From Pirellula sp. SH-Sr6A (GTDB taxonomy: Bacteria; Planctomycetota; Planctomycetia; Pirellulales; Pirellulaceae), in the NCBI RefSeq assembly GCF_001610875.1, contig NZ_CP011272.1, positions 5,561,988 through 5,625,987 on the forward strand: a stretch of 64,000 nt of DNA, in the 5' to 3' direction. A model generated the notes under the pieces. It worked only from the letters and a program-made list of their open reading frames with translations, searched no databases and was not told the DNA's origin. This document shows positions 3,148 through 32,153 of this stretch, one piece after another (positions within the stretch are counted from its first letter, which is position 1; each line of letters starts with the position of its first letter). Made by a program: the position numbers and the translations under genes.

Positions 3148-3581
3148 CTTTGATCTTCGGAAACAAAAACGTATTAGTGGTCGCTGCTCCTCTATATGGC
3201 GCGGCTGCGAATACGGAGAAGGTACCGAATTGCGATCGACTATGTCGCATCTTCATACCGAACTGAATCGGAATGGAAAAATCAATTTGAAGCGCATCGT
3301 GTCGATGTTAACTCGGTTGATCCAACGAACGGACACGGTATTCAAGGGATCGATCGAGTACGAGAAGTATCGCGAACAAGGCATTGGACCGAAGAGCTCG
3401 ATTCTTCGGCCCTGATTTGTATCGGGATCACCTCTCGCCCATCGGTCGATGCAAACTCAGGAGAGTTGCGACAGGTCTTTCGCGATCTAAGGTTGATTTG
3501 CAAACAATTGTGTACTACCGAACATATGATCGATAACCTATGGCTTCGCGACCAATCAGATCCTCGGATTGCATGGGAGAA
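3148..3581. other. no confident gene
   Basis: An open frame of 134 codons on the plus strand (3196-3600) runs into the next hairpin repeat and resembles nothing I know. A second frame (3110-3415) covers the same DNA. Neither has a credible ribosome binding site. The stretch is probably decayed or intergenic. Confidence 0.4.
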
Positions 3582-3673: not shown

Positions 3674-4013
3674 CTGCTTTCTCAAAACGCTGAACTTTAC
3701 ACTCTAGCAATGTCCTTGTTCGAGCTCTGACCGATTGACTCATTTCAGCGGTTTTCCCGGGGTTGATGTGCAATCGATGGAATGATCTGATAGGAAACGG
3801 TCTAGGTGCGAGTTTGTCACTCACTCGTTCACTTCGCTCAACAACTTCCTGACCGTCCTCAGGGATCGATCCATAGTCGAGCCCGTGGGTTCAGAGCAGG
3901 CATAATCTAACCAACGGATGCACTCAACGTCTCGATCAACCGGCCTCGGGCGGTCCATGCTTTCCTCTCTCGACGTCAGTGATCCTTTTCGTTCTCAGAT
4001 TGGAAATCAATCG
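3674..4013. other. intergenic, no gene seen
   Basis: About 340 bp with no open frame of convincing length or composition. It lies between two hairpin repeats and contains no recognisable promoter or RNA. Confidence 0.5.
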
Positions 4014-7051: not shown

Positions 7052-7087
7052 TTCACACCCCGGGCATAATTGAAAGAATACGGCAAG

Positions 7088-7477
7088 TTAAACACGCTTC
7101 CTTGCTTCTGAAATCATCTCACGCAACTGAGCCGCTTGTTCTGCAGTTATTCCGTCTTTTTCTAAATCGAGAATCGCGGCTACTGCACTGGTCGAGGACC
7201 CACCAAAGAAAACGTCTAGCAAGCGTCGAACGGCATTCTGCTGAACTCTTTGCTTGGGATGGGCTGCCGAATAGACATAGCGTTTTCCTTGCTCGGCAAC
7301 TTTTAGATAACCTTTGTCGACAAGGATCCCAAGCATGGTGCGGACAGAAGAATAGCTTGGGGCCTCTGCCATATTCTGACAAACCTGTGCGACGGTCGCG
7401 CTACCAAGCCGCAGCACGGTGTCGTAGATTTGCTGCTGCCGTTTTCCAAGTTCTACTGGCTCTGTGTCTCCCACCAT
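7088..7477 (-). CDS. BlaI/MecI/CopY-family transcriptional repressor
   Basis: A 129-residue winged-helix repressor of the penicillinase-repressor family: LGKRQQQIYDTVLRLGSATVAQV forms the first helices, SYSSVRTMLGILVDKGYL the recognition helix and the start of the wing, and the C-terminal half is the dimerisation region where M56 proteases usually cut. The gene starts at ATG 7477 and is followed by its M56 partner. A TTAGC dyad stands 20 bp upstream (7498-7521), so autorepression of the two-gene operon is likely. Confidence 0.88.
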   Translation of the reverse strand: MVGDTEPVELGKRQQQIYDTVLRLGSATVAQVCQNMAEAPSYSSVRTMLGILVDKGYLKVAEQGKRYVYSAAHPKQRVQQNAVRRLLDVFFGGSSTSAVAAILDLEKDGITAEQAAQLREMISEARKRV

Positions 7478-7988: not shown

Positions 7989-8336
7989 GTGCGTGCAGCC
8001 TCCTCACCGCCAAGTTCAAGCGCCAGCAAACCTGAAGCCAATCCGCCCAGCCCTGCCTACCTCTCTGTCGTGGACGTTTACGATGATGCGGCAAGGCGAA
8101 TTTCGCAACTGACCGGAATACAGATGCTCGATTGCAACGGGTGCGGATTATCGCTGCATGCGCTCCGCCGCTTGGCAGAGCTTCCGAAACTGCGTGGACT
8201 TCAGCCATTGGGCTGCCCCATCCCTGATGATGACGCGCGAGCAATTTTTCGACACAACCCATTATGTCTGCTACGATTGGACCTGGGCTCGTGGCGCAAT
8301 GGCGACTTGAATCGCCCTACAAAGAACATGGCGTAA
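7989..8336 (+). CDS. leucine-rich-repeat-like small protein (possibly a fragment)
   Basis: A 115-residue frame with GTG start. Residues 35-95 read like one to two leucine-rich repeats of the ribonuclease-inhibitor type (LTGIQMLDCNGCGLS, then LAELPKLRGLQPLGCPIPD and NPLCLLRLDL). The first 25 residues are low-complexity Ser/Pro and may not be translated. The TAA stop lies inside the palindromic element at 8332-8418, the arrangement seen for the other cassette-like genes here, so the 3' end looks genuine. The 5' end abuts an IS66 relic, so the gene may be truncated. Confidence 0.4.
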   Translation: MRAASSPPSSSASKPEANPPSPAYLSVVDVYDDAARRISQLTGIQMLDCNGCGLSLHALRRLAELPKLRGLQPLGCPIPDDDARAIFRHNPLCLLRLDLGSWRNGDLNRPTKNMA

Positions 8337-8418
8337 CCAAGCCATGCTCCTGAGCACGCGATCGAGCATTTGCACATGGTTGCCTCACTTGCGCGTGCCG
8401 GGTGATGGCAGACGATCG
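8332..8418 (+). repeat. cassette-type imperfect palindrome 1 (attC-like)
   Basis: The 5' arm GCCATGCTCCTGAGCACGC pairs with the 3' arm GCGTGCCGGGTGATGGC with few mismatches. The stop codon of the preceding gene is in the 5' arm, and the next gene starts 20 bp after the 3' arm. Confidence 0.55.
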
Positions 8419-8438
8419 CTCCTGACGATTGTTGCCTG

Positions 8439-8714
8439 ATGCGAAACCTGATCTCGGCTTTGAGACCAATCAAATCCGCTACCGAAGGCAGCCTGGATGA
8501 CTACGACTTCGAATTGGTTTATATCGCTGGAATGGATCCAGCGGTGATCAAGGTGAAGCTCCATGACGACACCCAGTTCACATACAAATGGGGTGCGTAT
8601 GTCTATACTGGGGGCAGTCCAGCGCGGTTTAAGCATGGCGTTGATACAATTCGCGACCGTCTTGAAGAACTTCGCGGTGAACGAGCACGGACCGAATCGA
8701 GCGGCGAACCATGA
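8439..8714 (+). CDS. hypothetical protein
   Basis: A 91-residue soluble protein, acidic in the middle (SLDDYDFELVYIAGMD) with a basic, charged C-terminal helix (DTIRDRLEELRGERAR). The gene fills the space between two palindromic elements, and its last codons, Glu-Pro-stop, lie in the second (8705-8790). No family recognised. Confidence 0.5.
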   Translation: MRNLISALRPIKSATEGSLDDYDFELVYIAGMDPAVIKVKLHDDTQFTYKWGAYVYTGGSPARFKHGVDTIRDRLEELRGERARTESSGEP

Positions 8715-8790
8715 TAGGCACGGGAGGAACGCTTGCGAGGTTTTTGAAAGACGAGGGTGTTGGTCCGTCCCCCCGTGAAAACATCCGATC
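8705..8790 (+). repeat. cassette-type imperfect palindrome 2 (attC-like)
   Basis: The 5' arm CGAACCATGATAGGCACGGG (from 8705) faces a 3' arm whose reverse complement is GATCGGATGTTTTCACGGGG: ATGnTnnnCACGGG is shared. The centre contains GGTTTTTGA, as in other members. The gene stop TGA is at 8712-8714, and the next start is 6 bp after the element. Confidence 0.65.
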
Positions 8791-8796
8791 TTTCAA

Positions 8797-9312
8797 ATGA
8801 AAATGACACCCAATCCGTACGAACCACCTCCCGCTACGATCGATGATCGATCCGTACTTGCACGCTTCCGCGACTGGTACCGGTTACCCTTCCCCGTTCG
8901 CGTTGGCGAGGAGAATCCATTTCAATGGATTGCTGACACAATGGTTGCATTGATTCTCTTGATTCCTGGCCTCAGCGTTGCTGATCTTTTTCATCAATCA
9001 TCATCGTTCCTCGAACCAATTGCATACTCGGTTGGATTGATGATCGGATGTTTCCCAGTCGGGATGTGGATGCACTATTGCCGAGTGTCACAATTCACTC
9101 CATTGTCAGTGATTCTTCTCGTTTCCCTAGTGCTTGCACTTAGAGCAGGTGCCGCGGGTTTGCATGCCCTCCATTCATTGCCGGTAGCCTTCGCTGTCTT
9201 GGTGATAGCACTTCCGTGTCAACATTTGATGGGTAAACTGATTCTTGGCTGGCTGCCTGCAAGCAGCACAAGAATACAGAGAGAGACCAAACCATTGGAC
9301 ACGAGGCCCTAG
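8797..9312 (+). CDS. NPYxPP-type membrane protein, unknown function
   Basis: A 171-residue protein with the N-terminal motif PNPYEPP followed by a cytosolic helix and about four membrane spans (about 46-66, 73-91, 103-121 and 126-150). ATG at 8797 or 8803 could be the start. The C-terminal tail TKPLDTRP is encoded by DNA nearly identical to the tail of the gene at 14433 (NKPLDAKP), because both ends overlap a related intergenic element. Function unknown. Confidence 0.55.
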   Translation: MKMTPNPYEPPPATIDDRSVLARFRDWYRLPFPVRVGEENPFQWIADTMVALILLIPGLSVADLFHQSSSFLEPIAYSVGLMIGCFPVGMWMHYCRVSQFTPLSVILLVSLVLALRAGAAGLHALHSLPVAFAVLVIALPCQHLMGKLILGWLPASSTRIQRETKPLDTRP

Positions 9313-9380
9313 ATCGGCCGCTGTGACTTGCGTTAAGTCAATGGCTGGGGCTTACGGAAACCTGCTGATCTTTGTCTAAC
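9286..9380 (+). repeat. cassette-type element 3 (diverged)
   Basis: Begins within the 3' end of the preceding gene. Its first 55 bp are about 85 percent identical to 14835-14890 (both carry AAACCATTGGAC, then CCCTAGATCGGCC and GTGACTTGCG). The pairing of the two arms is weak here. The next gene starts at 9398. Confidence 0.45.
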
Positions 9381-9397
9381 ATGGCGCAACGTCTAGC

Positions 9398-10093
9398 ATG
9401 GTACAACCCATTATTGTCAACGAACGTCGCGATCCTTTTGCTGTGGCGTCCTTTGCTTTAGGGCTTAGTTCCTTTCTCTGTCTCGCTGCTCCATTGGCTC
9501 TAATCAGTGGAATCGTCGCCTTGATTCGGATCAGAAATAGCGATGGCGAGCTACGGGGCAGAACTTTCGCGTGGTTTGGCATAGCGACCTCTTTGACGGC
9601 GATCACATTCTATGCCATGTACTTTCGCGCGATTCCAGGCTTGGGCTGGTATCACGAAATGGTAATGACAAGAAAGGTCTGCGGTGTTTCTTTTCAACTG
9701 GGGACTCCACTAGCAAACGGCGGTGAATCACGTAGAGCGTTTAACGGTGACGGCTATTCGGCAACTGCCTATCGTATCCCATCTGAGATTCTTCGTTCAC
9801 TTCAAATGAACTCAACGTTTACTCCGCATGTGACCGGCTTTGGTAACGATTGGCGTTCGCTGGGGTGGAAATCCCCAGTGGAGAAGTCCGATTGGACATA
9901 TCTAGACTTTGCCCTCGGAAGTGACGCCGTACGCGACTTGTCAGCAAAATCGCTGGCGTTTCCGACCACTCGCGTCGCGTACTTCTATAAACTGCACACC
10001 GGCGTAGATGGTGCGGTAAAAATTACTGACGTGACGATATACCTGATTGACATCGAAAATGCGGTTTTCATTGTCGCCGATCGAAACACATGA
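9398..10093 (+). CDS. DUF4190-domain membrane protein
   Basis: A 231-residue protein. Residues 11-75 fit DUF4190: DPFAVASFALGLSSFLC, a second hydrophobic stretch LALISGIVALIRI, then RGRTFAWFGIATSLTAI, forming a membrane hairpin. The remaining 150 residues form a soluble domain with no recognised family, probably outside the membrane. The gene ends 12 bp before the palindrome at 10106. DUF4190 proteins are common in bacteria and poorly characterised. Confidence 0.65.
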   Translation: MVQPIIVNERRDPFAVASFALGLSSFLCLAAPLALISGIVALIRIRNSDGELRGRTFAWFGIATSLTAITFYAMYFRAIPGLGWYHEMVMTRKVCGVSFQLGTPLANGGESRRAFNGDGYSATAYRIPSEILRSLQMNSTFTPHVTGFGNDWRSLGWKSPVEKSDWTYLDFALGSDAVRDLSAKSLAFPTTRVAYFYKLHTGVDGAVKITDVTIYLIDIENAVFIVADRNT

Positions 10094-10105
10094 ATCGCTG
10101 ACAGA

Positions 10106-10193
10106 GAACCAACAAATGCACGGGGGGGGGCGGGGCACGCGTTTTTTGATTGTCAGGTCACCTGCCGAATCCCAGTGATTTCAACCGTTCGCC
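10106..10193 (+). repeat. cassette-type imperfect palindrome 4 (attC-like)
   Basis: The 5' arm GAACCAACAAATGCACGGGG faces a 3' arm whose reverse complement is GAACGGTTGAAATCACTGGG: GAAC and AAATnCACnGGG are shared. The centre reads GCGTTTTTTGA. It contains runs of eight and four G. The next gene starts 25 bp downstream. Confidence 0.7.
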
Positions 10194-10218
10194 TGAAGGC
10201 GAGAACCTATCTTCGACC

Positions 10219-10611
10219 ATGAAAATTCGCTTTCGAATCCGAACTTTCTTCCTGGGCGCGATTATTGTAGCCGTTCTATTGGGCATTCTCGGGTCATGGT
10301 GGACGCGTCCATACGCCTTGACGGGTAGCTACGCAAACGGACAGCGAGCATGGGAGCAATGGGAACGGCGAACTTTGAGCTTGGGAATCCAAAGCGTCGA
10401 AACTATACGTTGGTTTCCCGATGGTTCGCTTGCCTTCCGTTGGAAAGCGAAACGAGCTAATAAGAAAACTTATTACTCACCAAACGGCGATACGATCGAC
10501 AATCCGCAGGAGTGGACTTTGAAATATGGACACCTAATTGCTAACGCGGAAGAAGACTCAAATTCTGCCCGTCCGTATAAAAGGCTCATCTGGTGGTGGA
10601 ATGATTGGTAG
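10219..10611 (+). CDS. small single-span membrane protein, unknown function
   Basis: A 130-residue protein from ATG 10219. The N-terminus MKIRFRIRTFFLGAIIVAVL is a typical planctomycete N-in membrane anchor followed by a Trp-rich periplasmic domain (residues 27-130). A longer frame upstream would need a TTG inside the palindrome, so the ATG is preferred. No domain recognised; the pattern FPDGSLAFRWKAKRANKKTYYSPNG is reminiscent of MORN-type toxin-antitoxin repeats but too short to assign. Confidence 0.5.
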   Translation: MKIRFRIRTFFLGAIIVAVLLGILGSWWTRPYALTGSYANGQRAWEQWERRTLSLGIQSVETIRWFPDGSLAFRWKAKRANKKTYYSPNGDTIDNPQEWTLKYGHLIANAEEDSNSARPYKRLIWWWNDW

Positions 10612-10637
10612 AATGAGGTTGACTTGTCCCTCCAGGG

Positions 10638-10723
10638 CGAACAAAGCGTTGGAGGCGAGGCCGCCGATCGCGTCCTTTGTGAAGTCCATGTTTCTTGGTG
10701 GCGGCCCCATTACCGCTGTCGTC
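10638..10723 (+). repeat. cassette-type imperfect palindrome 5 (attC-like)
   Basis: The 5' arm (GAACAAAGCG then GAGGCCGCC) pairs with the 3' arm GGCGGCCCC then CCGCTGTCGTC. The reverse complement GACGACAGCGGTAATGGGGC matches the 5' arm at AGCG and GGCCGCC. The next start (10746) is 22 bp downstream. Confidence 0.7.
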
Positions 10724-10745
10724 ATTTACTGGAGAGAAATCGCCG

Positions 10746-11357
10746 ATGCGACCATGGAAATCAACGCGAGCTATGATCGCACTTAGCGCTGCTGTGACCT
10801 TAGCGTTGGTGGCTGTTGCCCAACAAAGCCACATCAAGGTGCCGAAGCCATCGGTTATCGCAATACCGGCAAGACCCGAAGGCAAGTACGGGTTCGTCTC
10901 TTCATTGGTACAGGAACAGTACGCAGATGGGTTTCGGGAAAAAATTCCATTTGAATTCATTGAACTGAAACAGTGGGGGCAGTTTGATCCCTTTACCCAC
11001 GAACCCGGCGGCACGGAGTATCGAATTCTGTTATGGCGGGACGGAAAGGCAGAATACGAAGGTACTACGGGTGTAGAGAAGATAGGACTACATCGGGGCG
11101 AAGTCGCGATCGAAGAATATGGTAAACTGGCATTGCTGCTTGAGTTGTTTGGGTTTGATGCCGAAAATTGCGACGTTGGTTTTGAGGTGATGGTTTCTCA
11201 CCCGGTGGTTGCTGCGATTAACGTCGGTTTTGACAAAAAAGACCCAATGACGAGACGAAATGCGAATGGATACGGCGACTATCGGTTTTGGTTAATACAA
11301 TCTGCGATCGAGAATGTGGCCAATACCGTCATTTGGAAACCCGGCGGAAGAAAATAA
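10746..11357 (+). CDS. secreted protein, DUF6438-like
   Basis: A 203-residue protein with an N-terminal signal or anchor (about residues 8-25, ending AVAQQ). The segment EYRILLWRDGKAEYEG through EEYGKLALLLELFGF resembles DUF6438 (Y-x-x-x-x-x-x-D-G-x-x-x-Y-x-G, then an E-x-x-x-L-x-x-x-F helix). That is my reading of pattern, not a search result. ATG 10746 is chosen over an upstream frame that would start inside the palindrome. The TAA stop lies in the next palindrome (11353-11449). Confidence 0.55.
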   Translation: MRPWKSTRAMIALSAAVTLALVAVAQQSHIKVPKPSVIAIPARPEGKYGFVSSLVQEQYADGFREKIPFEFIELKQWGQFDPFTHEPGGTEYRILLWRDGKAEYEGTTGVEKIGLHRGEVAIEEYGKLALLLELFGFDAENCDVGFEVMVSHPVVAAINVGFDKKDPMTRRNANGYGDYRFWLIQSAIENVANTVIWKPGGRK

Positions 11358-11449
11358 CAATGGGGAGCCCCGAAGAATCCGCCGGTGCGTCGCTAAGTTT
11401 TTGATAGGTGGTCTGCGGCGATATCGGTTACCACTGCAGTTTTGTTCCC
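11353..11449 (+). repeat. cassette-type imperfect palindrome 6 (attC-like)
   Basis: Starts at the stop codon of the preceding gene (TAACAATGGGG) and ends at TTTTGTTCCC, immediately before ATG 11450. The outer AACAA/TTGTT and an inner CGAAGAATCCGCCG facing GCGGCGATATCGG pair. The centre has AAGTTTTTGA. Pairing is weaker than in members 2, 4 and 5. Confidence 0.5.
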
Positions 11450-12181
11450 ATGAACCTTAACCATGCAATCTTTACGAACCGTCGAGCGTCTCCCGGTTGG
11501 GCAATGCCCAAGGGATGGTTCGCATGGTTTGGCATCATGACGCCCGTGATGTTCGGACTCAACGGTTGGGTGCAGGATCTTGTGTTGGCATGGTCGGGCT
11601 GGTTAACGTTGTGGATTTCAGGACTCGTTGGCACGGTGGCAATAGGATACGATTCGGTACGAAATCTTCGACGTTTGGGAATCTTTGCAATGGGTCGCCC
11701 CCGATTCTTCTTTGAATTATCGAGGGCAATTCTTGCACTTGCATTCTTAATCTGGGCACCATCTCTAACGTTCGCTTTGGTACTTCCAAATATCAACGTG
11801 CCGGGAGTCAACTTCGCCATTATTCGACAACTCGTCCTGGTTCTCGCTGCCATGTTTTGCTTGACGGCAGTTTTGGGGTATCTGACGTCCTTTCTGACCG
11901 GACGGAGACGACATGGCCGGGCCTACGAATGTACGTCATGGTTCTTTTGTGTTTTTGGCGGCATCGCGATGGTCACGTTTGGCTACATTGCAATTCCGGA
12001 CCCACCGCGAGGTCTTTTGCCTGCAATTCCGGGAGTAATGACTTGCTGTACCGGCTTGGCATTACTTAGCAGTGGGGTTTTGGAAGAGGCCATGCGGGCA
12101 ATGCGCACAGAACCAAGCAATGCAACCGAGCCGGGCTTGCAAGGTTTTGCAGGTAGTAAATCAACTTTCCCGGAGCGCTGA
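11450..12181 (+). CDS. multi-span membrane protein, unknown function
   Basis: A 243-residue protein from ATG 11450 with about six hydrophobic segments spread over the first 210 residues and a polar C-terminal tail. A GTG at 11408 in frame lies inside the palindrome, so the ATG is preferred. No family recognised. Its 3' end is followed by the left end of an IS110/IS1111-type element, which may have inserted into the palindrome that would otherwise follow it. Confidence 0.5.
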   Translation: MNLNHAIFTNRRASPGWAMPKGWFAWFGIMTPVMFGLNGWVQDLVLAWSGWLTLWISGLVGTVAIGYDSVRNLRRLGIFAMGRPRFFFELSRAILALAFLIWAPSLTFALVLPNINVPGVNFAIIRQLVLVLAAMFCLTAVLGYLTSFLTGRRRHGRAYECTSWFFCVFGGIAMVTFGYIAIPDPPRGLLPAIPGVMTCCTGLALLSSGVLEEAMRAMRTEPSNATEPGLQGFAGSKSTFPER

Positions 12182-12184
12182 TCG

Positions 12185-12236
12185 CAGGCGACTATGAAGT
12201 CCTGGGTTTGCAGGCGACTATGAAGTCCTGGGTTTG
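12185..12236. repeat. perfect 26-bp tandem duplication at the IS left edge
   Basis: 12185-12210 and 12211-12236 are identical. Each copy ends in AAGTCCTGGGTTTG, whose inverted copy stands at 14361-14374 on the other side of the IS110-type transposase gene. Confidence 0.85.
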
Positions 12237-12295
12237 CAAGCGGCGGTCGCCACGATTTTTGGATTTTTGTTTTTACATCATGAGAGTTCCCGGTA

Positions 12296-12388
12296 GGTGC
12301 CTTCGTCGGAGCCGCTTGTCGGTCGCTCACCCCGGCGCAGCGCATGCGGAGCGTATGGCGAATGACAAGCGGCGCAGCGGAGGGCACC
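12296..12388. repeat. imperfect 25-bp inverted repeat
   Basis: 12296-12320 and 12364-12388 are reverse complements with a few mismatches; GACAAGCGGC and GGCACC are shared. The loop is about 43 bp. It lies in the long non-coding end of the IS and may be part of its structured end or an older element. Confidence 0.6.
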
Positions 12389-12929
12389 GGTGCCTTTGTT
12401 GGAGAGCTTTGAGGGAGCTTGGCCCTGGCGATTGTGACTGCGATACAAGGATGTTGATTAAACGACTATTCGAGGTGTAAACGCTCTTCGGTCTTGTGCG
12501 CCTGCTGATGCAGGTAGCGTCCCCTCAGTTATCCATACACGGTTCAAGCATCTTTGATTCGATGTTGTTCCGCAGTGGCTATAGCTTGCCTGGAGGCTTC
12601 TGTGAGCAGCAAGCTACCTTCCGTTCGACGACACATTCTTTAGGGCGACGTGTTTGACGATTCCGTGAGCCGAAGCTCATGTCCTAATGGAACCGTCAGT
12701 GTCAGTTTTGATGGGTGTTGAGTCGATTGGGTAGGTCTTCTCCTTGATGGCTGTCTGTTAATCGCTGGTTACACTGGCTCCGTGGTTAAAATGGTGTTGT
12801 CGGGTTATTGTTGAATCCATGGTCCAATTCGTTCTCCGATCTGAATGATCAGCCCGCGATACTGGTTGTCCAATGATTCGTTTTGTAAATTGGCGAGCAA
12901 GGCGCATTCGTTCTCCGATGTCAAACGCA

Positions 12930-14267
12930 TCAGGCAGCCGGTACGGGCTTTCTTGCTCGCCGTGGTTTGGTTGGTGTTTGTTTGCTAATTGCACTAGACT
13001 TGGTTGCTGCTGTCTTGCGTGGCTTGTCTGATTTTGCAATCGTTTTGGCTTTGGTTTTCACCGGCCTGGCCTTGGCGTTTTTCTCAGCCGCAGCCTCTCT
13101 AATGGCTCGAGCTTCGCGTCGGAGGCGACTCTTGCGTTGGTCACTGTTCTCCTTGGGCTTCATCTCGGAGAGTGTGGCTTTGAGGGTAGGCGACATGCGA
13201 CCGAAGGACTCCGTGACGTCAATCATGCGCTTCGGATCCCAGTCTTTGTCGTCTCGCATCAGTGCCCAGGCTAAGACCGCTATCTTGCGGGCAAGTGCCA
13301 CAGCAGCTTTCTTTTTGCGAGTGCGTTGCTTGCCGCAGACTCGCTCGTAGATGGACTTGGCCCATGGATTGTATCGCAGCGATGCCCATGCGCATTCGAC
13401 CAGGATGGTTCGAGCTAATGGGTTGCCTCGCTTGGTAATGCGACCGTTTCGGTCGGTCTCACCGGATTGATATTGGCGTGGTACGAGCCCGAAATAGGCA
13501 GACACTTCGCGGCCGCTAGAGAAGCGATGCGGATCGTCGATGCAAGCGACCAAGATCTCAGCGGTTCTTGGTCCAACGCCGGGGATCGTCATGATACGTC
13601 CGATTCGTTTATCGTTCTTACCGATTGCTTCAAGCTTCTTGACCACCAGGTCATGCTGAGCGGTGAGTGCATCGAGCTGCGTAAGTTCGATATCAAGTTC
13701 GGCTCGCCACAGTTCCTTGTCTTCGCATTCCGATAGCGGCTTGCGGAATGAATCGATACGCTTCCGGCCAGTGTTCCAGGCCTTCTCGCCCGAGTCGATG
13801 GTGATACCATGATTAACGAACCACGCGCGGATAGCACAATTCATCTTGCAGATGCGATGATCGAGCGTCTTGCGATATTTGACCAAGGAGCGGAATTCTC
13901 GAAGTTTCTCAGACGGCATGTGCACAGCCTTAAGTTCGTTCATCGAGGCCATTCGAGCGAGCTTGAGGGCATCGTCTTTGTCGGTCTTGCGTTTGACGTT
14001 GGACCACTTCCAAGCGTCTTCGTTGGTTGAGCAAACAAGAGTTTTGAGTCCCTGGCTGATGGCCAGGTCATTGATCCAACCGGAGGGGCCGCAAGCTTCC
14101 ATGACGACAAGGTCGACTTTGCGTGACGCGAAGACTTTGGCAAGATAATCGCGTTCAGTCGCAGCGACTTGGAATTCAGCTTTGCGTGTTTTGGTGTTGA
14201 AAAAGCAGCACATTGTCTTGAATTTGCCGAGGTCGAGAGCGAGAATCAACATGTTGGTTTGCTCCAT
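12930..14267 (-). CDS. IS110-family transposase (DEDD recombinase)
   Basis: A 445-residue transposase. The N-terminal RuvC-like DEDD domain shows D12 in ILALDLGK, E57 in VVMEACG and Asp residues in KTDKDDA (about 96-99). The C-terminal Transposase_20 domain shows IPGVGPRTAEILVA, then RFSSGREVSAYFGLVPRQYQ and SGETDRNGRITKRGN, where the Ser acts as nucleophile in IS110 enzymes. The last 90 residues are a Lys/Ala/Pro-rich tail, longer than usual. Full length and intact, so the element may be active. IS110 enzymes work with a structured guide RNA encoded in the element. Confidence 0.93.
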   Translation of the reverse strand: MEQTNMLILALDLGKFKTMCCFFNTKTRKAEFQVAATERDYLAKVFASRKVDLVVMEACGPSGWINDLAISQGLKTLVCSTNEDAWKWSNVKRKTDKDDALKLARMASMNELKAVHMPSEKLREFRSLVKYRKTLDHRICKMNCAIRAWFVNHGITIDSGEKAWNTGRKRIDSFRKPLSECEDKELWRAELDIELTQLDALTAQHDLVVKKLEAIGKNDKRIGRIMTIPGVGPRTAEILVACIDDPHRFSSGREVSAYFGLVPRQYQSGETDRNGRITKRGNPLARTILVECAWASLRYNPWAKSIYERVCGKQRTRKKKAAVALARKIAVLAWALMRDDKDWDPKRMIDVTESFGRMSPTLKATLSEMKPKENSDQRKSRLRREARAIREAAAEKNAKARPVKTKAKTIAKSDKPRKTAATKSSAISKQTPTKPRRARKPVPAA

Positions 14268-14432
14268 GGGTTTGGGGTTGGAAGAATGTGGCAGCGGTCG
14301 TTACAGCGACCTAAGATCACGGGTCTGAGTCGCCAGATTTTATTCGAATGGCTCCCGCCCCAAACCCAGGACTTACATGGATTCTTTTCTAATGGAAATC
14401 GGACGAAATCGAACTTAGGCTCTGATCGCGAC

Positions 14433-14864
14433 ATGTTACGAATCGCTCGTTTAAGGCTGCTCCAAGGATTCGCGTCAATCGCTGCACTTTTTTCGCTCGG
14501 TCTATTTTTAGTACGTCCTGATGTTGAACGGTATTTATCGCAGAGTTTGCCAGGTCATCACATGCCTGATGCGTTTCGTGGGCTAAACGGGATGCTTGCT
14601 ATCTTTATGATGTTCGTTACCGCAACCACTCTTCTCGCTATCGCGATTGAAACGAGACGGCAGTACGTGTTATTCATTCCTCTGCTGTTCGGGCCATCTG
14701 CTTGCTTTGTGGGTTGGTTTTTGACCGAGAACTTCAACGATCCCAACTGGTTCCTTTTGATCGCACCGACCACAGTTGGTATGGTGGTGTCATGCGCGGT
14801 TACGTTCGTAATGTTAATCGCGACCAGAAAAAAACGAAACAAACCATTGGACGCGAAGCCCTAG
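14433..14864 (+). CDS. multi-span membrane protein, unknown function
   Basis: A 143-residue protein from ATG 14433 with four hydrophobic segments (about 12-28, 52-72, 80-98 and 110-132). The tail RKKRNKPLDAKP is the counterpart of TKPLDTRP in the gene at 8797, because the 3' end overlaps a related intergenic element. The gene follows the right end of the IS, whose insertion separates it from the gene at 11450. Confidence 0.5.
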   Translation: MLRIARLRLLQGFASIAALFSLGLFLVRPDVERYLSQSLPGHHMPDAFRGLNGMLAIFMMFVTATTLLAIAIETRRQYVLFIPLLFGPSACFVGWFLTENFNDPNWFLLIAPTTVGMVVSCAVTFVMLIATRKKRNKPLDAKP

Positions 14865-14917
14865 ATCGGCCATGGTGACTTGCGCTGGGGCGACCGCTCG
14901 TGGCGAATGATCACGGT
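14835..14917 (+). repeat. cassette-type element 7 (diverged)
   Basis: Shares its first 55 bp with 9286-9345, including CCCTAGATCGGCC followed closely by GTGACTTGCG. The stop codon of the preceding gene lies inside. The arms pair poorly. The next gene begins at 14944. Confidence 0.45.
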
Positions 14918-14943
14918 AAACCTGTCACAGACTCTCCAAGCAA

Positions 14944-15537
14944 ATGCCTGACCTCTACGCTGTGCTTCTTGACATGGGACTCCACCCTGAGACGTATAGC
15001 ATTGCGACTGTGGGTGAGATTAGGGCCTTCATGGATGGATATCGATTTGCTCTCAGCAGGGGGATCGTGACGTCGCCTGAGGTTCCACCCTTTCGCCAAT
15101 TTTCTGAATGGCTAGTCCGTAAACTTGATCGCGGAAACACGAGCATGGGCTGGTGGGAGATCTTGAAATGGGATGAGACCGATGAGGCGATGGCAATACG
15201 CCATTTTGCCACGCTGATAGCAGAATTTTCCCAGCGTTATCCAACCGTTTTGGCTATCGCTAACTTAGACGTCGAGCGTCACCGACCAACGCGCCAATTC
15301 CAATATGGCTTCGCGAAAAACGGAGTGTACACCGACATGACCGATAAAGGCCCTTTCGCCGTAAGAATCACACATTACGCTCTCGATGAAGGCGTGTACC
15401 TAGAGTACTGCTACGAAGACATTGAGTATGAAAGATACAGTGACAGTTATTTGTCCGCCCAGATGCTCGCTAACAGGGACTTCTGTATCGAAGTCGCCGA
15501 TTGGATCGTTCAAGTCAAAGCCCCCTGGTTCGAATAA
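14944..15537 (+). CDS. hypothetical cytosolic protein, immunity-protein-like pattern
   Basis: A 197-residue soluble protein without signal or membrane spans. The first 100 residues (YSIATVGEIRAFMDGYRFAL, then FSEWLVRKL and MGWWEILKW, then a helix ending HFATLIAEFSQ) recall small proteins that act as immunity factors in polymorphic-toxin loci. This is a pattern impression, not an assignment. No toxin gene is adjacent. It is the last plus-strand gene of the cassette-like series, facing the minus-strand series. Confidence 0.5.
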   Translation: MPDLYAVLLDMGLHPETYSIATVGEIRAFMDGYRFALSRGIVTSPEVPPFRQFSEWLVRKLDRGNTSMGWWEILKWDETDEAMAIRHFATLIAEFSQRYPTVLAIANLDVERHRPTRQFQYGFAKNGVYTDMTDKGPFAVRITHYALDEGVYLEYCYEDIEYERYSDSYLSAQMLANRDFCIEVADWIVQVKAPWFE

Positions 15538-15576
15538 GACGCGTCAGTCATCCGAGTTCAAGGATCCTGATCGTTG

Positions 15577-15948
15577 TCACAAAGTGCTCGGCCGCTGTGG
15601 CCCGATCTGTTCTGCTCCGGCAAAGGCGAAACGATTGAAGGCCAAGTATGCGAGGAAAGAAGGGGCCGCGCCGGCGAGGAGGAACTCAGCACCCGCAAAT
15701 GCGGCCGAAATATTGGATAGAAGATAAAACAGAAGCAAACAGGCAATTGAAAGAAATTGGGTGCACTTCCGCCAGGCATATGGCCGGCCATTCGTTAGGA
15801 TCATCAATTTTTTCGACCCATGATCGAATCGCACAAGAATCACAATCGCCATCGATATCATGCCGAGGACCTGGAGAGCGAGCATCGAGACGATGATCCA
15901 AATAGGAGGCTTGATTCCTGGTTTGTCGAATCCCAGGGGATGTCCCAT
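15577..15948 (-). CDS. membrane protein, unknown function
   Basis: A 123-residue protein from ATG 15948 with a long span at about 17-40 and a hydrophobic region at about 65-105 that could form one or two spans. It converges with the preceding plus-strand gene and lies just downstream of an IS256-type element. No family recognised. Confidence 0.45.
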   Translation of the reverse strand: MGHPLGFDKPGIKPPIWIIVSMLALQVLGMISMAIVILVRFDHGSKKLMILTNGRPYAWRKCTQFLSIACLLLFYLLSNISAAFAGAEFLLAGAAPSFLAYLAFNRFAFAGAEQIGPQRPSTL

Positions 15949-16017
15949 TTGTTGTTGAAACTCTTGATGGTCTCGCTGGTGAAAACTTAGGGTTACTTGA
16001 CTTGACTTTCAACTGCT

Positions 16018-16059
16018 CGCCGCCATTTTCAATCGCCGAGGCGATTGAAAATGGCGGCG
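16018..16059. repeat. perfect 20-bp palindrome
   Basis: 16018-16037 and 16040-16059 are exact reverse complements around a GA centre (CGCCGCCATTTTCAATCGCC on the left). It starts 7 bp beyond the transposase stop codon, so it could be a transcription terminator or part of the IS end. Confidence 0.85.
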
Positions 16060-16066
16060 AAGCCGA

Positions 16067-17275
16067 TCAGGTGGGTGCCGCCTCGGGACGCGACAATGCC
16101 GCAATCAGGGCAGGTAGCGACTGATGCCCTGCGATCTTGCGGAAGCCCTTCTCCGCTTCGAGTAGCGCATACGAAAGCCAGCGTGAGGCTTGATCCGTCT
16201 CGGCTCGAAAACGGGTTACTCGATCGATCTTGCGACGTGTGTTTAAGAAAGAGTTCTCGATCGCGTTGGTGCTCAGCAGCGAACGGTGAAGCGTGTTGGG
16301 GACATTAAGACGTTGCAACGCCAAAAGGTCCTCACCGGCCTCCTGTAGACTCTTGTAAGCCTCCGCATTGATCGGCTTCAAGAATGATTTCAACTCTTTG
16401 AACACTTCCTCAGCAGCCCCGATCCCCTGCACACTGCGAATGCGCGTAAACAACCGCGATAGTTCGCCCCAATGACGCTTGGATAATTTGCCTTTGATGT
16501 TTCGCTCCTTATGCACCAAGCAACGTTGCACGACGCAGTCGGTAAAGGATTCTTTTACCGCCCCACGCAACGCATCACTGCCATCGAGTACGACGTAAAG
16601 ACGATGTGAGCAAGCGAAACCACGCCGGACGATTCGACTCATCAGGTCACGAGAAACTTCGATGTTTTCGCTGGTTCCCAATACGAAATCCAGGACATGC
16701 TTGTTACCTTCGTTGTCGATCCCCAGAGCCACGACTGCTGTCTGGTCCTTGCTTAATCGGATTCCGTCAAGCATCAATGCACACCACGCGATCGAGCCAA
16801 GATCTTTACCGCGTAGTCGCTCAACGAACCGGCTGCCAGCCTCCTGCCAAAGCCGTGAAACACTGGAGCGTTTGACGCCCGGAGAGTTTGGCTTGATCTC
16901 CTCAATGGCTCGTGAGCTGACGCCCGAGACGATCGCTTGGACGATCTGAGCTTGCAACTGCTGCGGATCTTTGGCCGCCCGGTAGCTGGCCAGTTCGACT
17001 TCGCAGCTGGTCCCGTCTGAGGACTTCTGACGCACACGTGGCCGAACGACCTCCTCCCGATCGCCCTCCAAAAGCACTCGCCCCGAGGCGGATCCCGCGC
17101 GATAAAGATCGCTCGATGACGGATCGTGCTTGGGCCCACAAAGCTCAGTGACTTCGGCAGCCATGACTTCACAAATCATCTGGCGGATGTGGCCCCGTAA
17201 GAACGCTCGAAAGATTTCCCCGGTTTCTGACGCAGAAACTTGCCCAAGAGATTGCAAAAGACTAACTTCATTCAT
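16067..17275 (-). CDS. IS256-family (Mutator-type) transposase
   Basis: A 402-residue DDE transposase from ATG 17275. Catalytic residues are visible as Asp in LMLDGI, Asp in VVLDGSDALRG and Glu in LSTNAIENSF; the C-x-H zinc pair is in VVQRCLVHKERN. Length is normal. An upstream frame extension to 17368 would run through a structured leader and is not favoured. The element appears to have inserted next to, or into the end of, the gene at 17362. Terminal inverted repeats were not resolved by eye. Confidence 0.9.
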   Translation of the reverse strand: MNEVSLLQSLGQVSASETGEIFRAFLRGHIRQMICEVMAAEVTELCGPKHDPSSSDLYRAGSASGRVLLEGDREEVVRPRVRQKSSDGTSCEVELASYRAAKDPQQLQAQIVQAIVSGVSSRAIEEIKPNSPGVKRSSVSRLWQEAGSRFVERLRGKDLGSIAWCALMLDGIRLSKDQTAVVALGIDNEGNKHVLDFVLGTSENIEVSRDLMSRIVRRGFACSHRLYVVLDGSDALRGAVKESFTDCVVQRCLVHKERNIKGKLSKRHWGELSRLFTRIRSVQGIGAAEEVFKELKSFLKPINAEAYKSLQEAGEDLLALQRLNVPNTLHRSLLSTNAIENSFLNTRRKIDRVTRFRAETDQASRWLSYALLEAEKGFRKIAGHQSLPALIAALSRPEAAPT

Positions 17276-17352
17276 GATGGTCTCCCCGTCGGTTGCACCC
17301 GACGAAAATTGAAAAGTTGCGAAGGGCAGATTCTGCCCTCCGGGAGACCATC
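17276..17352 (-). promoter_or_regulatory. three-way-junction structure in the transposase leader
   Basis: GATGGTCTCCC (17276-17286) pairs with GGGAGACCATC (17342-17352). Inside lie two more hairpins, CGTCGGTTGCACCCGACG (17287-17304) and AGGGCAGATTCTGCCCT (17323-17339). The structure ends against the transposase start codon. Confidence 0.75.
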
Positions 17353-17361
17353 TTTCAACTT

Positions 17362-17865
17362 TCAACAATTAGTGGGACGCTTCCCGTTTCGAACCCTGAT
17401 ACGGCCACTTGGTGCAATCAAACCGGCTGCGAACATTGCACCCAGGCAAAGTCGGCCGATCTCTTCGGTTTGGCAGACGATTCGTATCATTTCACGATTG
17501 TCAGTGCCTAACATCCATTGGCATGTAGCAACATATTGATCCCAGTCTGGAAGTCTTTCGAGTTCCCAAAGGTAGCCACCAGAAGCTGTCATTGTATAGG
17601 TTTTTCCATCAACATAATCACGGGTTTCAATCCGCCATATCTTCCCAACTCTGCAATTTAGAAACCCTCGGGCAACCAGTGAGGCGAGCGTCAATTCTAA
17701 ATCCGCATCGGTCAGACTGTGCGAATAAGGGCAATTCATGTGAAACGAATAGTCCTCCATTCGAAGATGATGAAAGGAAAGACTCTTGTCGAAAAGGAAG
17801 TCGAACAGCAGCAACTCGTCATCCGACAAGTTTGTTGCGTTGGTTCGTCTCGGGGGAGTTTGCAT
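17362..17865 (-). CDS. hypothetical protein, possibly 3'-truncated by the IS
   Basis: A 167-residue soluble protein from ATG 17865 (an upstream TTG at 17898 is less likely). The core reads as a compact alpha/beta fold with a winged-helix flavour (DADLELTLASLVARGFLNCR, then a basic GKIWRI strand). The C-terminus GRIRVRNGKRPTNC stops right at the edge of the IS256 unit, so the original end may have been lost. No family recognised. Confidence 0.45.
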   Translation of the reverse strand: MQTPPRRTNATNLSDDELLLFDFLFDKSLSFHHLRMEDYSFHMNCPYSHSLTDADLELTLASLVARGFLNCRVGKIWRIETRDYVDGKTYTMTASGGYLWELERLPDWDQYVATCQWMLGTDNREMIRIVCQTEEIGRLCLGAMFAAGLIAPSGRIRVRNGKRPTNC

Positions 17866-18030
17866 TTTGTTCGGGTTCTGTTCCCGACTATGTTTCAATT
17901 CAGCCGGCGCAAGCAGGAGGCTCAGCGCAAGTCAAAACCGCCGATAAAGCCTTCGCCTGCATCGCTCAGGGACTCCCGGCACGGGCATTGTTCAATGGAG
18001 TTCAAATCGCTCATGCGAGATGGGGCGATT

Positions 18031-18131
18031 GACGAAGTCAGTATACCAAATAGCGGTTGCGAAAGTAAAAGCACGCAGTGGCGTTGGGAGTTTGCTCTGC
18101 AACGGGTATCCGGGTGCATCCTATTGTTTGC
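18031..18131 (-). repeat. cassette-type imperfect palindrome 8 (attC-like)
   Basis: Read on the minus strand it begins CAAACAATAGGATGCACCCG and ends with a 3' arm whose reverse complement contains AGTCAGTATACC and GCGGTTGC, pairing imperfectly with AATAGGATGCACC and CCCGTTGC. The translated 5' arm gives NNRMHPD, a string I recall as a frequent spurious peptide in planctomycete genomes, which suggests a widespread element. Confidence 0.5.
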
Positions 18132-18264
18132 ACTCTTATTGTGTTGCAAGTTGACTCTGGATTGTGGCGAGAAGTTCGGCTTCGATAACAGGATCCGCGC
18201 CGATCATCAGCACCAAATAGTCGTGAAATTCATGAGCGTCAAAATTTGAATTCATCAGTGCAAA

Positions 18265-18597
18265 CTACAAAACATCTTCGATTGTTTCATTGTCGTGCCA
18301 AGTCGTCATCACAAGACGATCACGGGGCGGATCGAAATTCGGATCAGTAAGTATGAAAGCCATGTCAACGGAATCGTCCCATGAGCTGGCGTTGGTTCCC
18401 CAAGCTAGCATGTAGCGACAGTCCATTACCACGAGCTGTGCACTTAAGTTGGATTGTTGCTCAGGGGTTACCGATGAATCTCACGAAACGACAATTGCAA
18501 CAAAAGGTGAGCCCAAAGCTGGAATCTGTGTTTCGTAGGGTGGCTCCAACCGTAGGAACCAGAATCGCCGATCTCGTTGTTGTGCGATCAGTCTCAT
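18265..18597 (-). pseudogene. DUF7684-like gene interrupted by an in-frame TGA
   Basis: From ATG 18597 the frame reads 38 codons to FVAIVVS, meets TGA (18481-18483) and continues in the same frame for 71 codons to TAG at 18265. The second part contains CRYMLAWGTNASSWDDSVD and LVMTTWHDNETIEDVL, which I recognise as the pattern of the small DUF7684 family (A-W-G-x-x-C/A-S-x-W-D-D-S-V-D and M-T-T-W-H). A point mutation such as CGA to TGA would explain it. Both flanks carry palindromic elements, so the gene is otherwise a complete cassette-like unit. Confidence 0.65.
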
Positions 18598-18606
18598 TTT
18601 AAGTTA

Positions 18607-18693
18607 CGAACGGTTGAGATGACAGAGGGCGACGAGTTGAGTCAATACAGTTCAAAACGGCTGTTCAAGGACTAAGTCTGTATCGCTTGGTTC
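18607..18693 (-). repeat. cassette-type imperfect palindrome 9 (attC-like)
   Basis: On the minus strand it starts GAACCAAGCGATACAGAC inside the 3' end of the 18652 gene and ends TCTCAACCGTTCG, whose reverse complement CGAACGGTTGAGATGACAGA pairs with it. The 3' end TCAACCGTTCG is identical to that of element 4. The centre has GTTTTGA. The next gene starts 10 bp on. Confidence 0.7.
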
Positions 18694-19167
18694 TGCGACC
18701 CTCACTGGGGTCCCCGGCAGCTCAGTGTAGGGTATCGTCGGATTTCGAACTACTAACTGGGCAAGTCGAGCTTCCCATTTGCTGGATTTCGAGCCGTGCC
18801 ATCCGCCGGAATGACCTGTCGAATCCCATAGATCGTCTTCGGTTGGATCGTAAAGCAAAAGAAATCCGATACCGTTGTCGTCAAACACGCAAATGATACC
18901 GGAGCTAGCGTCCTTGATTGCGGAAAACGACAACGGCTTGGAAGGACGAGCGATGGTTTGTTCGGCCACGGCATACATCCCAATTGCTGGTGGGTTGTGG
19001 TAAGTGATACCAAGAACAATCTCATTCGCTGACCGCGATTTTTGCCGAATTGTAAGTCGGTGCCGTGCGGAAAGTTGATGTTCAAATAAGATTGACGACC
19101 GGTTTACGACGAACCCCGCGATGATCATCGCAACTGCACAGACGAGTATTGCAATTACGACACGCAT
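18652..19167 (-). CDS. single-span membrane-anchored protein, unknown function
   Basis: A 171-residue protein from ATG 19167, chosen because AAGGAG stands 6 bp upstream; an ATG at 19185 lacks such a site. The N-terminus MRVVIAILVCAVAMIIAGFV is a membrane anchor; the rest is a soluble, probably periplasmic domain. The last 14 residues (SDTDLVLEQPF region) are encoded inside palindrome 9. No family recognised. Confidence 0.6.
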   Translation of the reverse strand: MRVVIAILVCAVAMIIAGFVVNRSSILFEHQLSARHRLTIRQKSRSANEIVLGITYHNPPAIGMYAVAEQTIARPSKPLSFSAIKDASSGIICVFDDNGIGFLLLYDPTEDDLWDSTGHSGGWHGSKSSKWEARLAQLVVRNPTIPYTELPGTPVRVAEPSDTDLVLEQPF

Positions 19168-19187
19168 GAGTGTCTCCTTGGTCATTT

Positions 19188-19280
19188 GGCGGTACGGCGA
19201 CGATCGCACCGTCGCTAACAAAAAAACTATTGTTCAAATTTGCGGCCGATCGGCTACTTGGGTGCATCGCGTGGGTTGTC
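19188..19280 (-). repeat. cassette-type imperfect palindrome 10 (attC-like)
   Basis: The 5' arm (minus strand) has AACCCACGCGATGCACCC; the 3' arm GACGGTGCGATCGTCGCCGT pairs through CGATnGCACC. The centre has AGTTTTTTTG. The preceding gene's last codons (NPRDAPK) are inside, and the next gene starts 21 bp on. Confidence 0.55.
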
Positions 19281-19772
19281 TTCGGTCTTTGAGTCCTTGG
19301 CATTGGTCGGTCTTGCCACGGCTAGCGCTATAATGCACGATCGGCGAAAACCAACATAGCCGAATACGATGGTCAGCAAGCAGTATAACGCGATCGCGAT
19401 CGGGCTCGCTCCATGTTCGAGTAGTTTTGGGGTATCGAGGTAGCGGTCACCAGAAAGCCAAGCAGTCGCAATGTAGGTTCCGTTTGCGAGAATACAAAAG
19501 TTGGCAATGAACCACATCCATTCACGCTGAACAATCATCGCCAGGGCGGCGGGAGCTAAGACACCAATAATCAATCCAGCCCACAGTGTCACCAACGGAT
19601 ACGGATCGGGTTCAAAGATGCTATAAGGAAGATGCCACGGCCACAGATCTGCCGATATCAGCGATCCACCACAGCATACTCCACCGATGATGTGCCCCAT
19701 CTCGTGGATCGTTGTCATAGCCACCCAGCTGATCGCCAGCAGGAGCACAAATCGAGGGAAGCGAGGATTCAA
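19254..19772 (-). CDS. HExxH membrane metalloprotease-like protein
   Basis: A 172-residue integral membrane protein with about five spans. TTIHEMGHIIGGVCCGGSL (residues 20-38) has the HExxH zinc-binding motif inside a hydrophobic segment followed by a Gly-rich turn, as in M50-type intramembrane proteases and their planctomycete relatives; LVTLWAGLIIGVLAP (about 60-74) is a second conserved segment. The NPDG ligand motif of site-2 proteases is not seen, so activity is uncertain. The start is TTG with AAGGTG upstream. A decayed paralog lies at 2569-2720. Confidence 0.6.
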   Translation of the reverse strand: MNPRFPRFVLLLAISWVAMTTIHEMGHIIGGVCCGGSLISADLWPWHLPYSIFEPDPYPLVTLWAGLIIGVLAPAALAMIVQREWMWFIANFCILANGTYIATAWLSGDRYLDTPKLLEHGASPIAIALYCLLTIVFGYVGFRRSCIIALAVARPTNAKDSKTEDNPRDAPK

Positions 19773-20304: not shown

Positions 20305-20374
20305 CTCGATGCAGGAAAATATTCCGAACCAGCATGGACGCTACAGAATACCCATGCAATTGCCCAGAAACGCG

Positions 20375-20401
20375 AAAAACCCTGGGAAAACCAGGGTTTT
20401 T
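20375..20401. terminator. intrinsic terminator (bidirectional)
   Basis: AAAAACCCTGG, loop GAAAA, CCAGGGTTTTT: an 11-bp perfect stem with A and T tracts. It lies 4 bp before the tRNA-Ser fragment at 20405. Confidence 0.75.
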
Positions 20402-20404
20402 GAG

Positions 20405-20425
20405 CGGAGAGGACAGGAACCGAAC
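20405..20425. other. putative attL: truncated copy of the tRNA-Ser 3' end
   Basis: CGGAGAGGACAGGA followed by a two-base difference and CGAAC matches 38705-38725, the 3' end of the tRNA-Ser gene, at 19 of 21 positions in the same orientation. Confidence 0.65.
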
Positions 20426-20553
20426 AACCAATGAAATCCCTGGGAAAATCGAGGTTTCAAAACGTGGCGGCGCAGAATCCGACGCGCGCCGAAAAACGGG
20501 CAGCGCACAGGCAGCGCACGAGCAAAACCAACGCTCCAATCAATGCGCCGATT

Positions 20554-31363: not shown

Positions 31364-31723
31364 TTATATCTCCGTCGGAACTGGGTGCCAGGACTGAAGG
31401 TTCCCATGACCAGTCATCAGGTCCTTCCACCATTTCGCGGTCGTGAGCACGCTGGAGGATTTCCAGGACCTTTGCGTCTTGACCGTTCCCTCGCGCGACT
31501 TGCTCATCGACTGGAGCATTCCATCGATCTCATCGGTTTGAAAGAGCATACACGGTGAGAGATACAAAGCGTCTTGGATCCCTTCCTCGACGAGAATCCC
31601 TTCTGCAAGGTCAAGACGCAGAAAAACTCGTTGAAGGTCAATGAATTCGTAACTCGCGAGATAGTCGACAAGCTGATGAAGAAGGCCAATCCCGTTTTGA
31701 GAGTCATCTTGGGGCTTAGTCAT
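31364..31723 (-). CDS. hypothetical protein
   Basis: A 119-residue soluble protein starting at ATG 31723 (IDLQRVFLRLDLAEGILVEE, then KSREGTVKTQRSW). It lies between the IS256 relic and a hairpin repeat; its 3' end is near the IS edge and may be truncated. No family recognised. Confidence 0.35.
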   Translation of the reverse strand: MTKPQDDSQNGIGLLHQLVDYLASYEFIDLQRVFLRLDLAEGILVEEGIQDALYLSPCMLFQTDEIDGMLQSMSKSREGTVKTQRSWKSSSVLTTAKWWKDLMTGHGNLQSWHPVPTEI

Positions 31724-31737
31724 TACAGTGTTTTTTT

Positions 31738-31821
31738 AACCACGGACGACACGGAATACACGGAATAGAAACCAGGGATGGGAGTGGACTTATTTCCGTG
31801 TGTTCGGCGTGTTCCGTGGTT
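31738..31821. repeat. 84-bp hairpin repeat, ACACGGA family
   Basis: Near-identical, arms and spacer, to 3064-3147 (for example AACCACGGA, ACCAGGGA and GTTCCGTGGTTCTTTGATC in both). Arms of 27 bp made of 9-bp steps. Confidence 0.85.
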
Positions 31822-31889
31822 CTTTGATCCTAGGGGACATAAGAGAACTCGTGGTCGCCGTTCTGCAGTATCACGCAGCAGCGAACACA

Positions 31890-32153
31890 GCCATGGGCAG
31901 GAAGAACGCGAACCTACGCTACGAGTTGTTGCGGCTTCTGCGACGCGCCGGCGTTTCGGGTTGGCCACGATTGTTTCATTCCATGCGAGCAAGCCGGCAG
32001 GCAGAACTGCAACGAGAGTTTCCGCTGCATGTGGTTTGTAGCTGGCTCGGCAACTCGCCACGCATCGCACAGCAGAGTTACTCGCTGGTTACTGAGGATG
32101 ATTTTGCGAGAGCGGCTGGAGCAAAGAAGGTGATGGCTGTAAAGCAGATTTGA
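31890..32153 (+). pseudogene. tyrosine recombinase, C-terminal remnant A
   Basis: Encodes LRRAGVSGWPRLFHSMRASR, then ELQREFPLHVVCSWLGNSPR and a QQSYSLVTEDDFARAA tail. This is the C-terminal catalytic box of a planctomycete-type phage-integrase family protein: H-x-x-R in FHSMR, W/H-x-x-G region SWLGNS, nucleophile Tyr in QQSY. The first two thirds are missing. A second copy lies at 36885-37115 in the same orientation. Confidence 0.8.

Follow-up and report, generated by a model that had tools for sequence, protein, structure and literature searches.

Clusters of attC sites lacking integron integrases (CALINs) have been defined and counted (PMC9024848), and the routes by which they may originate have been listed (PMC8618304). 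As described there, a CALIN holds at least two attC sites separated by genes (on average almost 6 sites) and no integrase, and such loci are proposed to be degraded integrons. Integrons were reported in Planctomycetes in 2008 (PMC2426708), and a Planctomycetes-specific attC model has been built (PMC8352920); the planctomycete attC is thus already a known kind. The locus described here lies in Pirellula sp. SH-Sr6A, within a stretch of 64,000 nucleotides (called the window below) that spans positions 5561988-5625987 of a chromosome assembled as one contig of 6,534,136 bases. Between about 8 and 19.3 kb of the window, short genes alternate with imperfect palindromes. This array is very probably a degenerate CALIN, that is, a set of gene cassettes (small gene plus attC) without an integron integrase.

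The assignment is made because an attC model trained on other genomes recognizes the sites, there is roughly one site per gene, no IntI above the cut-off is found in the chromosome, and one cassette has other neighbors elsewhere. It largely bears out the first-pass annotation, which had proposed a cassette array without an integrase. How does the locus compare with described ones? It shares the basic layout, but the chromosome holds seven more clusters of at least two sites and no intI, and the cluster in the window has fewer R' cores than the others. The CALIN of Halorhodospira halochloris, as presented in PMC7923331, likewise sits in a genome without intI and is accompanied by an insertion sequence (IS) and by remnants of group II introns. 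There, group IIB introns and an IS200/605 element lie beside one CALIN, whereas here an IS1111-type element lies in an attC and the intron is assigned to group II as a whole. The same paper describes group IIC-attC introns, which insert into the bottom strand of attC, in the direction opposite to that of the cassettes and mostly at TTGT/T. The IS1111 elements that have attC as their target, ISKpn4 and ISPst6 among them, are treated in PMC11187229, which cites Tetu and Holmes 2008 and Post and Hall 2009. The array therefore adds a new case to a known kind of locus, and both types of parasite at attC were already known. A stretch of orphan genes finds an explanation as a cassette remnant, and a planctomycete case of mobile elements settling in attC is added.

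attC sites and cassette genes

The sites were searched for with R1, an attC covariance model built from 28 sites of eight relatives and none from the own genome, since circularity was to be avoided. Each of the eight carries an IntI above the cut-off of TIGR02249 (integron integrase), as do 107 of 396 genomes of the order. Training led from the DNA around the eight intI genes to short repeats, then to a scan for AAC...GTT arms, and finally to the alignment of the 28 sites. The arm scan served only to pick candidates; the sites themselves, about 89-92 bp long, were chosen by eye, and some near duplicates were left out along with the roughly 100-bp GCCTAACC type of loci L060 and L062. In the alignment the AAC and GTT cores are invariant, 15 of the 22 predicted stem pairs have changes on both sides, and the 5' arm has two unpaired columns. 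R1 was built independently of the published planctomycete model. Within the family, R1 finds matches at E <=0.001 in 105 of 119 genomes and none in the other 14; it therefore does not fire on every genome of the group.

Searching the entire window with filters off gave 23 matches (see Table 1 for the sites retained). Six plus-strand sites between 3.9 and 12.2 kb have E <=4e-5, and two weak ones lie on the minus strand at 18.6-19.3 kb. A further match at 3371-3461 has E 0.34, and the best score elsewhere in the window (outside 3.3-19.3 kb) is 13.8 bits (E 0.22). The strands of the matches agree with the earlier statement that the two halves of the array are oppositely oriented; the reversed right half is probably a later rearrangement. 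Six of the ten palindromes that had been called attC-like from the letters were recovered by R1 (8332, 8705, 10106, 10638 and, on the minus strand, 18607 and 19188), those at 11353 and 18031 failed, and those at 9286 and 14835, here sites C and G, could be tied to attC only by homology. Both of these match one attC of a relative (locus L070, 51.7 bits with R1), C with 82% identity over 71 bp and G with 75% over 63 bp; as far as sequence comparison goes, they are decayed homologues of another genome's attC. Site F, at 11353, is absent from the 23 matches and is a possible, unproven, very degenerate attC.

Several sites resemble individual attC of relatives. Site A is 86% identical over 76 bp to one in L070 and 84% over 79 bp to one in L069, and site E matches those of L073 (81% over 68 bp) and L058 (74% over 86 bp). 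Site K matches an attC of L058 with 75% over 61 bp, and site J is 79% identical over 76 bp to L064 1888-1962, a segment within a 48.6-bit attC. Across 20 fetched loci, the array finds matches on sites A, B, C, E, G, J and K, the IS and the intron relic. As a separate observation, the three adjacent sites A, B and C (8331, 8703 and 9282) carry GAT at the position of the GTT crossover core.

What of the genes? Ten of them (g1-g8, m3 and m4) were set against sites A-G, K, I and J, among which C, F and G are doubtful: eight have their stop codon inside the site, and the other two end 10 and 25 bp ahead of it. For seven plus-strand genes, the next ATG lies 4-28 bp beyond the site. Both relations had been noted from the letters, and the C-terminal tails said to be shared by the small proteins fit as well, given the eight stops within sites. 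At its gathering threshold, Rfam finds only a tRNA in the window.

Table 1. Features of the array, with positions counted from the first base of the window
Feature	Position	Strand	Remarks
attC	3905..3997	+	30.0 bits, E 6.1e-6 (R1); AAC and GTT cores kept; overlooked in the first pass
Cassette ORF (open reading frame) g1	7989..8336	+	115 aa (amino acids); stop within attC A; no Pfam match at 0.01
attC A	8331..8420	+	49.4 bits, E 2.1e-11 (R1); R' core GAT, not GTT
Cassette ORF g2	8439..8714	+	91 aa; no Pfam match
attC B	8703..8793	+	34.9 bits, E 2.7e-7 (R1); R' core GAT
Cassette ORF g3	8797..9312	+	171 aa; no Pfam match
Decayed attC C	9282..9370	+	Limits approximate; first-pass 9286; only 4.8 bits (R1)
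Cassette ORF g4	9398..10093	+	231 aa; DUF4190 (PF13828, E 1.5e-9)
attC D	10103..10193	+	55.0 bits, E 5.9e-13 (R1); both cores kept
Cassette ORF g5	10150..10611	+	As listed; likely ATG start 10219 (by eye)
attC E	10636..10727	+	35.7 bits, E 1.6e-7 (R1); R' core GTC
Cassette ORF g6	10695..11357	+	As listed; likely ATG start 10746 (by eye)
Site F	11352..11445	+	First-pass 11353; 6.5 bits when its stretch is searched alone
Cassette ORF g7	11408..12181	+	As listed; likely ATG start 11450 (by eye)
attC K	12107..12190	+	R1 match 12107-12197, 27.3 bits, E 3.6e-5; overlooked in the first pass; R' cut by insertion sequence
IS1111-type insertion sequence	12191..14386	-	At R' of attC K; transposase 12930-14267, IS110 family NF033542
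ORF g8	14169..14864	+	As listed; first part is IS sequence; likely gene start near 14433 (by eye)
Strongly decayed attC G	14832..14925	+	Limits approximate; first-pass 14835; about -1 to 1 bits (R1)
Cassette ORF g9	14944..15537	+	197 aa
IS256-family transposase	16067..17368	-	Between the oppositely oriented halves
ORF m2	17362..17898	-	178 aa; no Pfam match
Possible attC arm remnant	17890..17969	-	Next to intron relic; 0.7 bits (R1)
Miniature group II intron relic	17970..18124	+	Limits by eye; first-pass 18031; 5' end joined to 3' end
attC I	18605..18696	-	Weak, 19.5 bits, E 0.0055 (R1); both cores kept
Cassette ORF m3	18652..19221	-	As listed; 189 aa
attC J	19191..19280	-	Weak, 16.5 bits, E 0.039 (R1)
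Cassette gene m4	19254..19772	-	172 aa; HEMGH motif (by eye)

Integrase and cassettes beyond the array

No IntI above the TIGR02249 cut-off is encoded in the 6.53-Mb single-contig chromosome, where no protein scores above 79 bits and the cut-off is 265. The two best-matching proteins align up to profile position 186 or 178 and resume at 238 or 237, a gap that we take to be where the IntI-specific insertion sits. The best matches, 302-338 residues long, look like Xer or phage-type recombinases. When an IntI of the same genus (409.5 bits with TIGR02249) was used as the query, the own genome returned the same recombinases and no other remnant at E 0.01. A complete integron has intI and attI; the search made here was for intI, and it found none above the cut-off. 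Four tyrosine recombinase genes with equal scores stand at G000:C1 (the own chromosome) 2626551-2644607 and 4571746, three of them spaced 8.65 kb; 61 C-terminal residues of these proteins are 54% identical to IntI.

Do the cassettes occur elsewhere? At the DNA level, a comparison of the array with 97 genomes (own included) gave 11 matches in 9 other genomes. Four fall on sites (A, A, C and E), seven within the two insertion sequences, and none in a cassette gene. At the protein level, relatives of m4 occur in 129 of the 241 genomes of the family, the own genome counted among them. An attC stands at the 3' end of m4 in six of 29 homologous loci (L115, L116, L117, L119, L122 and L141), L116 being cut by its contig end. 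Of the five closest loci, four have the attC, and in L118, the fifth, the gene reaches the end of the contig. The 29 loci, which span about 1.5 kb on each side of m4, contain no match to the remaining 12 proteins of the window. In another genus (genome G168, loci L030/L117), m4 lies beside intI and diverges from it: m4 is at C27:4596-5102 on the minus strand with a 68-bit attC at its end, and intI is on the plus strand with its match starting at 5707. The interval between the listed m4 and intI ORFs contains no complete ORF of 60 residues, although a 67-residue ORF overlaps the beginning of the intI ORF. The gene is located where a first cassette would be. The expectation that related genomes would hold the same genes with different neighbors, and with intI, is borne out by m4, alone among the three cassette proteins searched. 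Near the left end of the array, at 2536-2757, there is a second m4-like fragment, covering residues 101-172 with 44% identity and one stop codon.

Probable decay of the sites and rival explanations

The window is not the only place with attC. R1 gives 46 matches over the chromosome at E <=1 and 34 at E <=0.001, a lower bound in that 150 of 3083 first-look candidates were scored and full scans added three sites. In fetched stretches searched with filters off, 33 matches outside the window reach at least 29 bits. With thresholds of >=29 bits outside and >=16.5 bits within the window, and grouping at 4.5 kb, nine clusters of at least two sites emerge (37 sites), seven outside the window plus its two halves. 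All nine are uniform in strand. Left out of the core and cluster counts were 12 of the 45 fetched-stretch matches (<29 bits) and 15 of the 23 window matches (<16 bits). Most of those 12 lie on the strand of their own cluster; the 12.8-bit match in L092 and the 12.4-bit match in L093 do not. A tenth, weak group near 4.945 Mb scores 29.0, 24.5 and 23.1 bits.

How well are these sites preserved? The GTT of the R' core is present in 3 of 8 window sites versus 29 of 33 elsewhere in the genome, and two of the four exceptions elsewhere are cut by IS. By a lenient test, the AAC core (R'') is kept in 8 of 8 window sites versus 24 of 33 elsewhere. Folding tells less. Twelve window stretches, some of them doubtful sites, were folded as bottom strands; z ranges from -0.74 to 1.84, so that none reaches -1 and 0 of 12 are at z <= -2. 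Among sites of relatives, 8 of 8 have z -2.46 to -4.73, but these are training sites picked for good arms, and the contrast is therefore weaker than at first sight. Four high-scoring sites of the own genome gave z -1.28, -2.76, -1.27 and -2.22, and z <= -2 was reached by 7 of 16 R1 matches in three other own clusters; pooled, 9 of 20 reach it and 11 do not. Folding was rejected as proof of attC for the window: 9 of 20 and 0 of 12 differ, yet folding alone cannot single out attC. Taken together, decay is stronger in the window than in the other clusters, a statement made with moderate confidence.

IntI joins cassettes by recombination at G/TT in the bottom strand of attC, which acts in folded form. 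The array would have been built by such joining, and intI may since have been lost or may never have resided beside the array. Its R' cores and hairpins look eroded, and because of this the array is now probably for the most part immobile. Might it instead still be live, with an IntI acting in trans to excise or capture cassettes? Exogenous IntIs reportedly can still use CALIN cassettes, according to the statement in PMC9668308, and D, I and 3905 retain both cores. In addition, many sites in other clusters likewise fail to outdo shuffles in folding, which makes folding a weak guide. On the other hand, R' GTT is absent from 5 of the 8 window sites (IS-cut in one) and none of the 12 stretches folds well, and a live array is improbable. 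Also improbable is a broader proposal, that the other clusters, at least seven, are largely recombination-ready (to judge by the 29 of 33 R' GTT) and fed by transient integrases, while two parasites that seek attC spread through the sites, one of them an IS1111-type element and the other a group II intron in miniature, non-autonomous form. What can be said is that well-kept and eroded attC clusters stand in one chromosome without an integrase and therefore form a graded series, of use for following the fate of cassettes after integrase loss and for testing the reach of attC finders.

Two other explanations leave integrons out. Are the palindromes dispersed repeats of the repetitive extragenic palindromic (REP) type? 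They do occur at many chromosomal places with IS1111-type copies on them, and PMC11187229 mentions an IS1111 member whose targets are REP sequences. Yet the sites are clustered, with one strand per cluster in 9 of 9 clusters, R1 was trained near intI genes, and a gene with its site adjoins intI in another genus, all of which makes a REP origin very improbable. Least credible of all is that they are intrinsic terminators after unrelated small genes: they overlap or follow stop codons, and a terminator-like match (17871-17887) borders on the putative remnant of an attC arm that starts at 17890, but such matches number 10 in 8-19.5 kb versus 12.9 expected, none lies within a listed attC, the stop is often inside the site, and attC of other genomes resemble the sites in sequence.

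The points that weigh against a degenerate CALIN are mainly 4-fold. (i) Recognition is uneven. The palindromes at 11353 and 18031 fail, those at 9286 and 14835 rest on homology, the sites at 18605 and 19191 are weak, and R1 E-values are rough. (ii) The palindromes were expected to stand out by folding, and none of the 12 stretches clearly beats its shuffles; the contrast with relatives is softened by the choice of controls. The test for AAC cores was lenient. (iii) Of three cassette proteins searched, m4 alone turned up elsewhere: g9 has no match at E 1e-5 in 240 other family genomes, and a strict scan of named genomes gave no relative of g4. Even for m4, 23 of the 29 loci are without attC at E 0.05 with default filters (in one, L118, the gene is at a contig end). 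Found with attC in 6 loci and without it in 23, m4 therefore appears to be an ordinary gene in some places and a cassette in others. (iv) A minus-strand gene pair at 4202-7477 separates site 3905 from the rest of the array, and this site may therefore be a separate remnant.

Mobile elements and further observations

Mobile elements would have targeted the attC sites of the array. One is an IS1111-type element that sits in attC K, and the other is a group II intron, of which a relic remains near 18 kb. The insertion sequence has 713 bp of noncoding DNA downstream of its transposase gene, 120 bp upstream, and short inverted repeats near its ends. Two other copies lie at G000 1027163 and 2333936, and in all three the element begins right after the CG of R'. 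With the ISKpn4/ISPst6 group, as portrayed in PMC11187229, it shares an IS110/IS1111 transposase, a longer noncoding part downstream, short inverted repeats and insertion at one attC end. It differs in host group, and the likeness is drawn from family match and layout. At 12191-12242 of the window, the left 26 bp of the element are in tandem duplicate; they are single in the other two copies.

The palindrome at 18031 is not an attC. It lies in the intron relic, beside a possible, barely recognizable attC arm that is 78% identical over 59 bp to part of an attC in L064. Positions 17975-18111 of the relic are 73% identical to a copy at G000 1035819. Three further copies have both intron ends, at G000 1032049-1032200, 1034410-1034556 and 1035819-1035971, all within 4 kb, so that the miniature element, about 140-155 bp long, has four copies in the own genome; several more places there hold one intron end only. 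A full group II intron lies at about 1025090-1027100, with a reverse transcriptase/maturase (TIGR04416) and matches to Rfam RF02001, RF01998 and RF00029. In L071, the full intron is on the strand opposite to the attC at L071 5097-5187. The miniature element could be a non-autonomous form of such an attC-seeking intron. With intron ends mapped only approximately, TTG stands in the 5' flank of five of six aligned copies, the window copy being the one without it.

Two observations concern the surroundings of these elements. Adjoining the IS256-family transposase gene is a 44-bp inverted self match (95%) at 16017-16060. To the right of the array, the segments 31584-32136 and 20332-20523 have many matches in genomes of the same genus, several on one contig (G471:C13); by eye, 31584-32136 resembles the end of a tyrosine recombinase, and 20332-20523 the 3' end of a tRNA.

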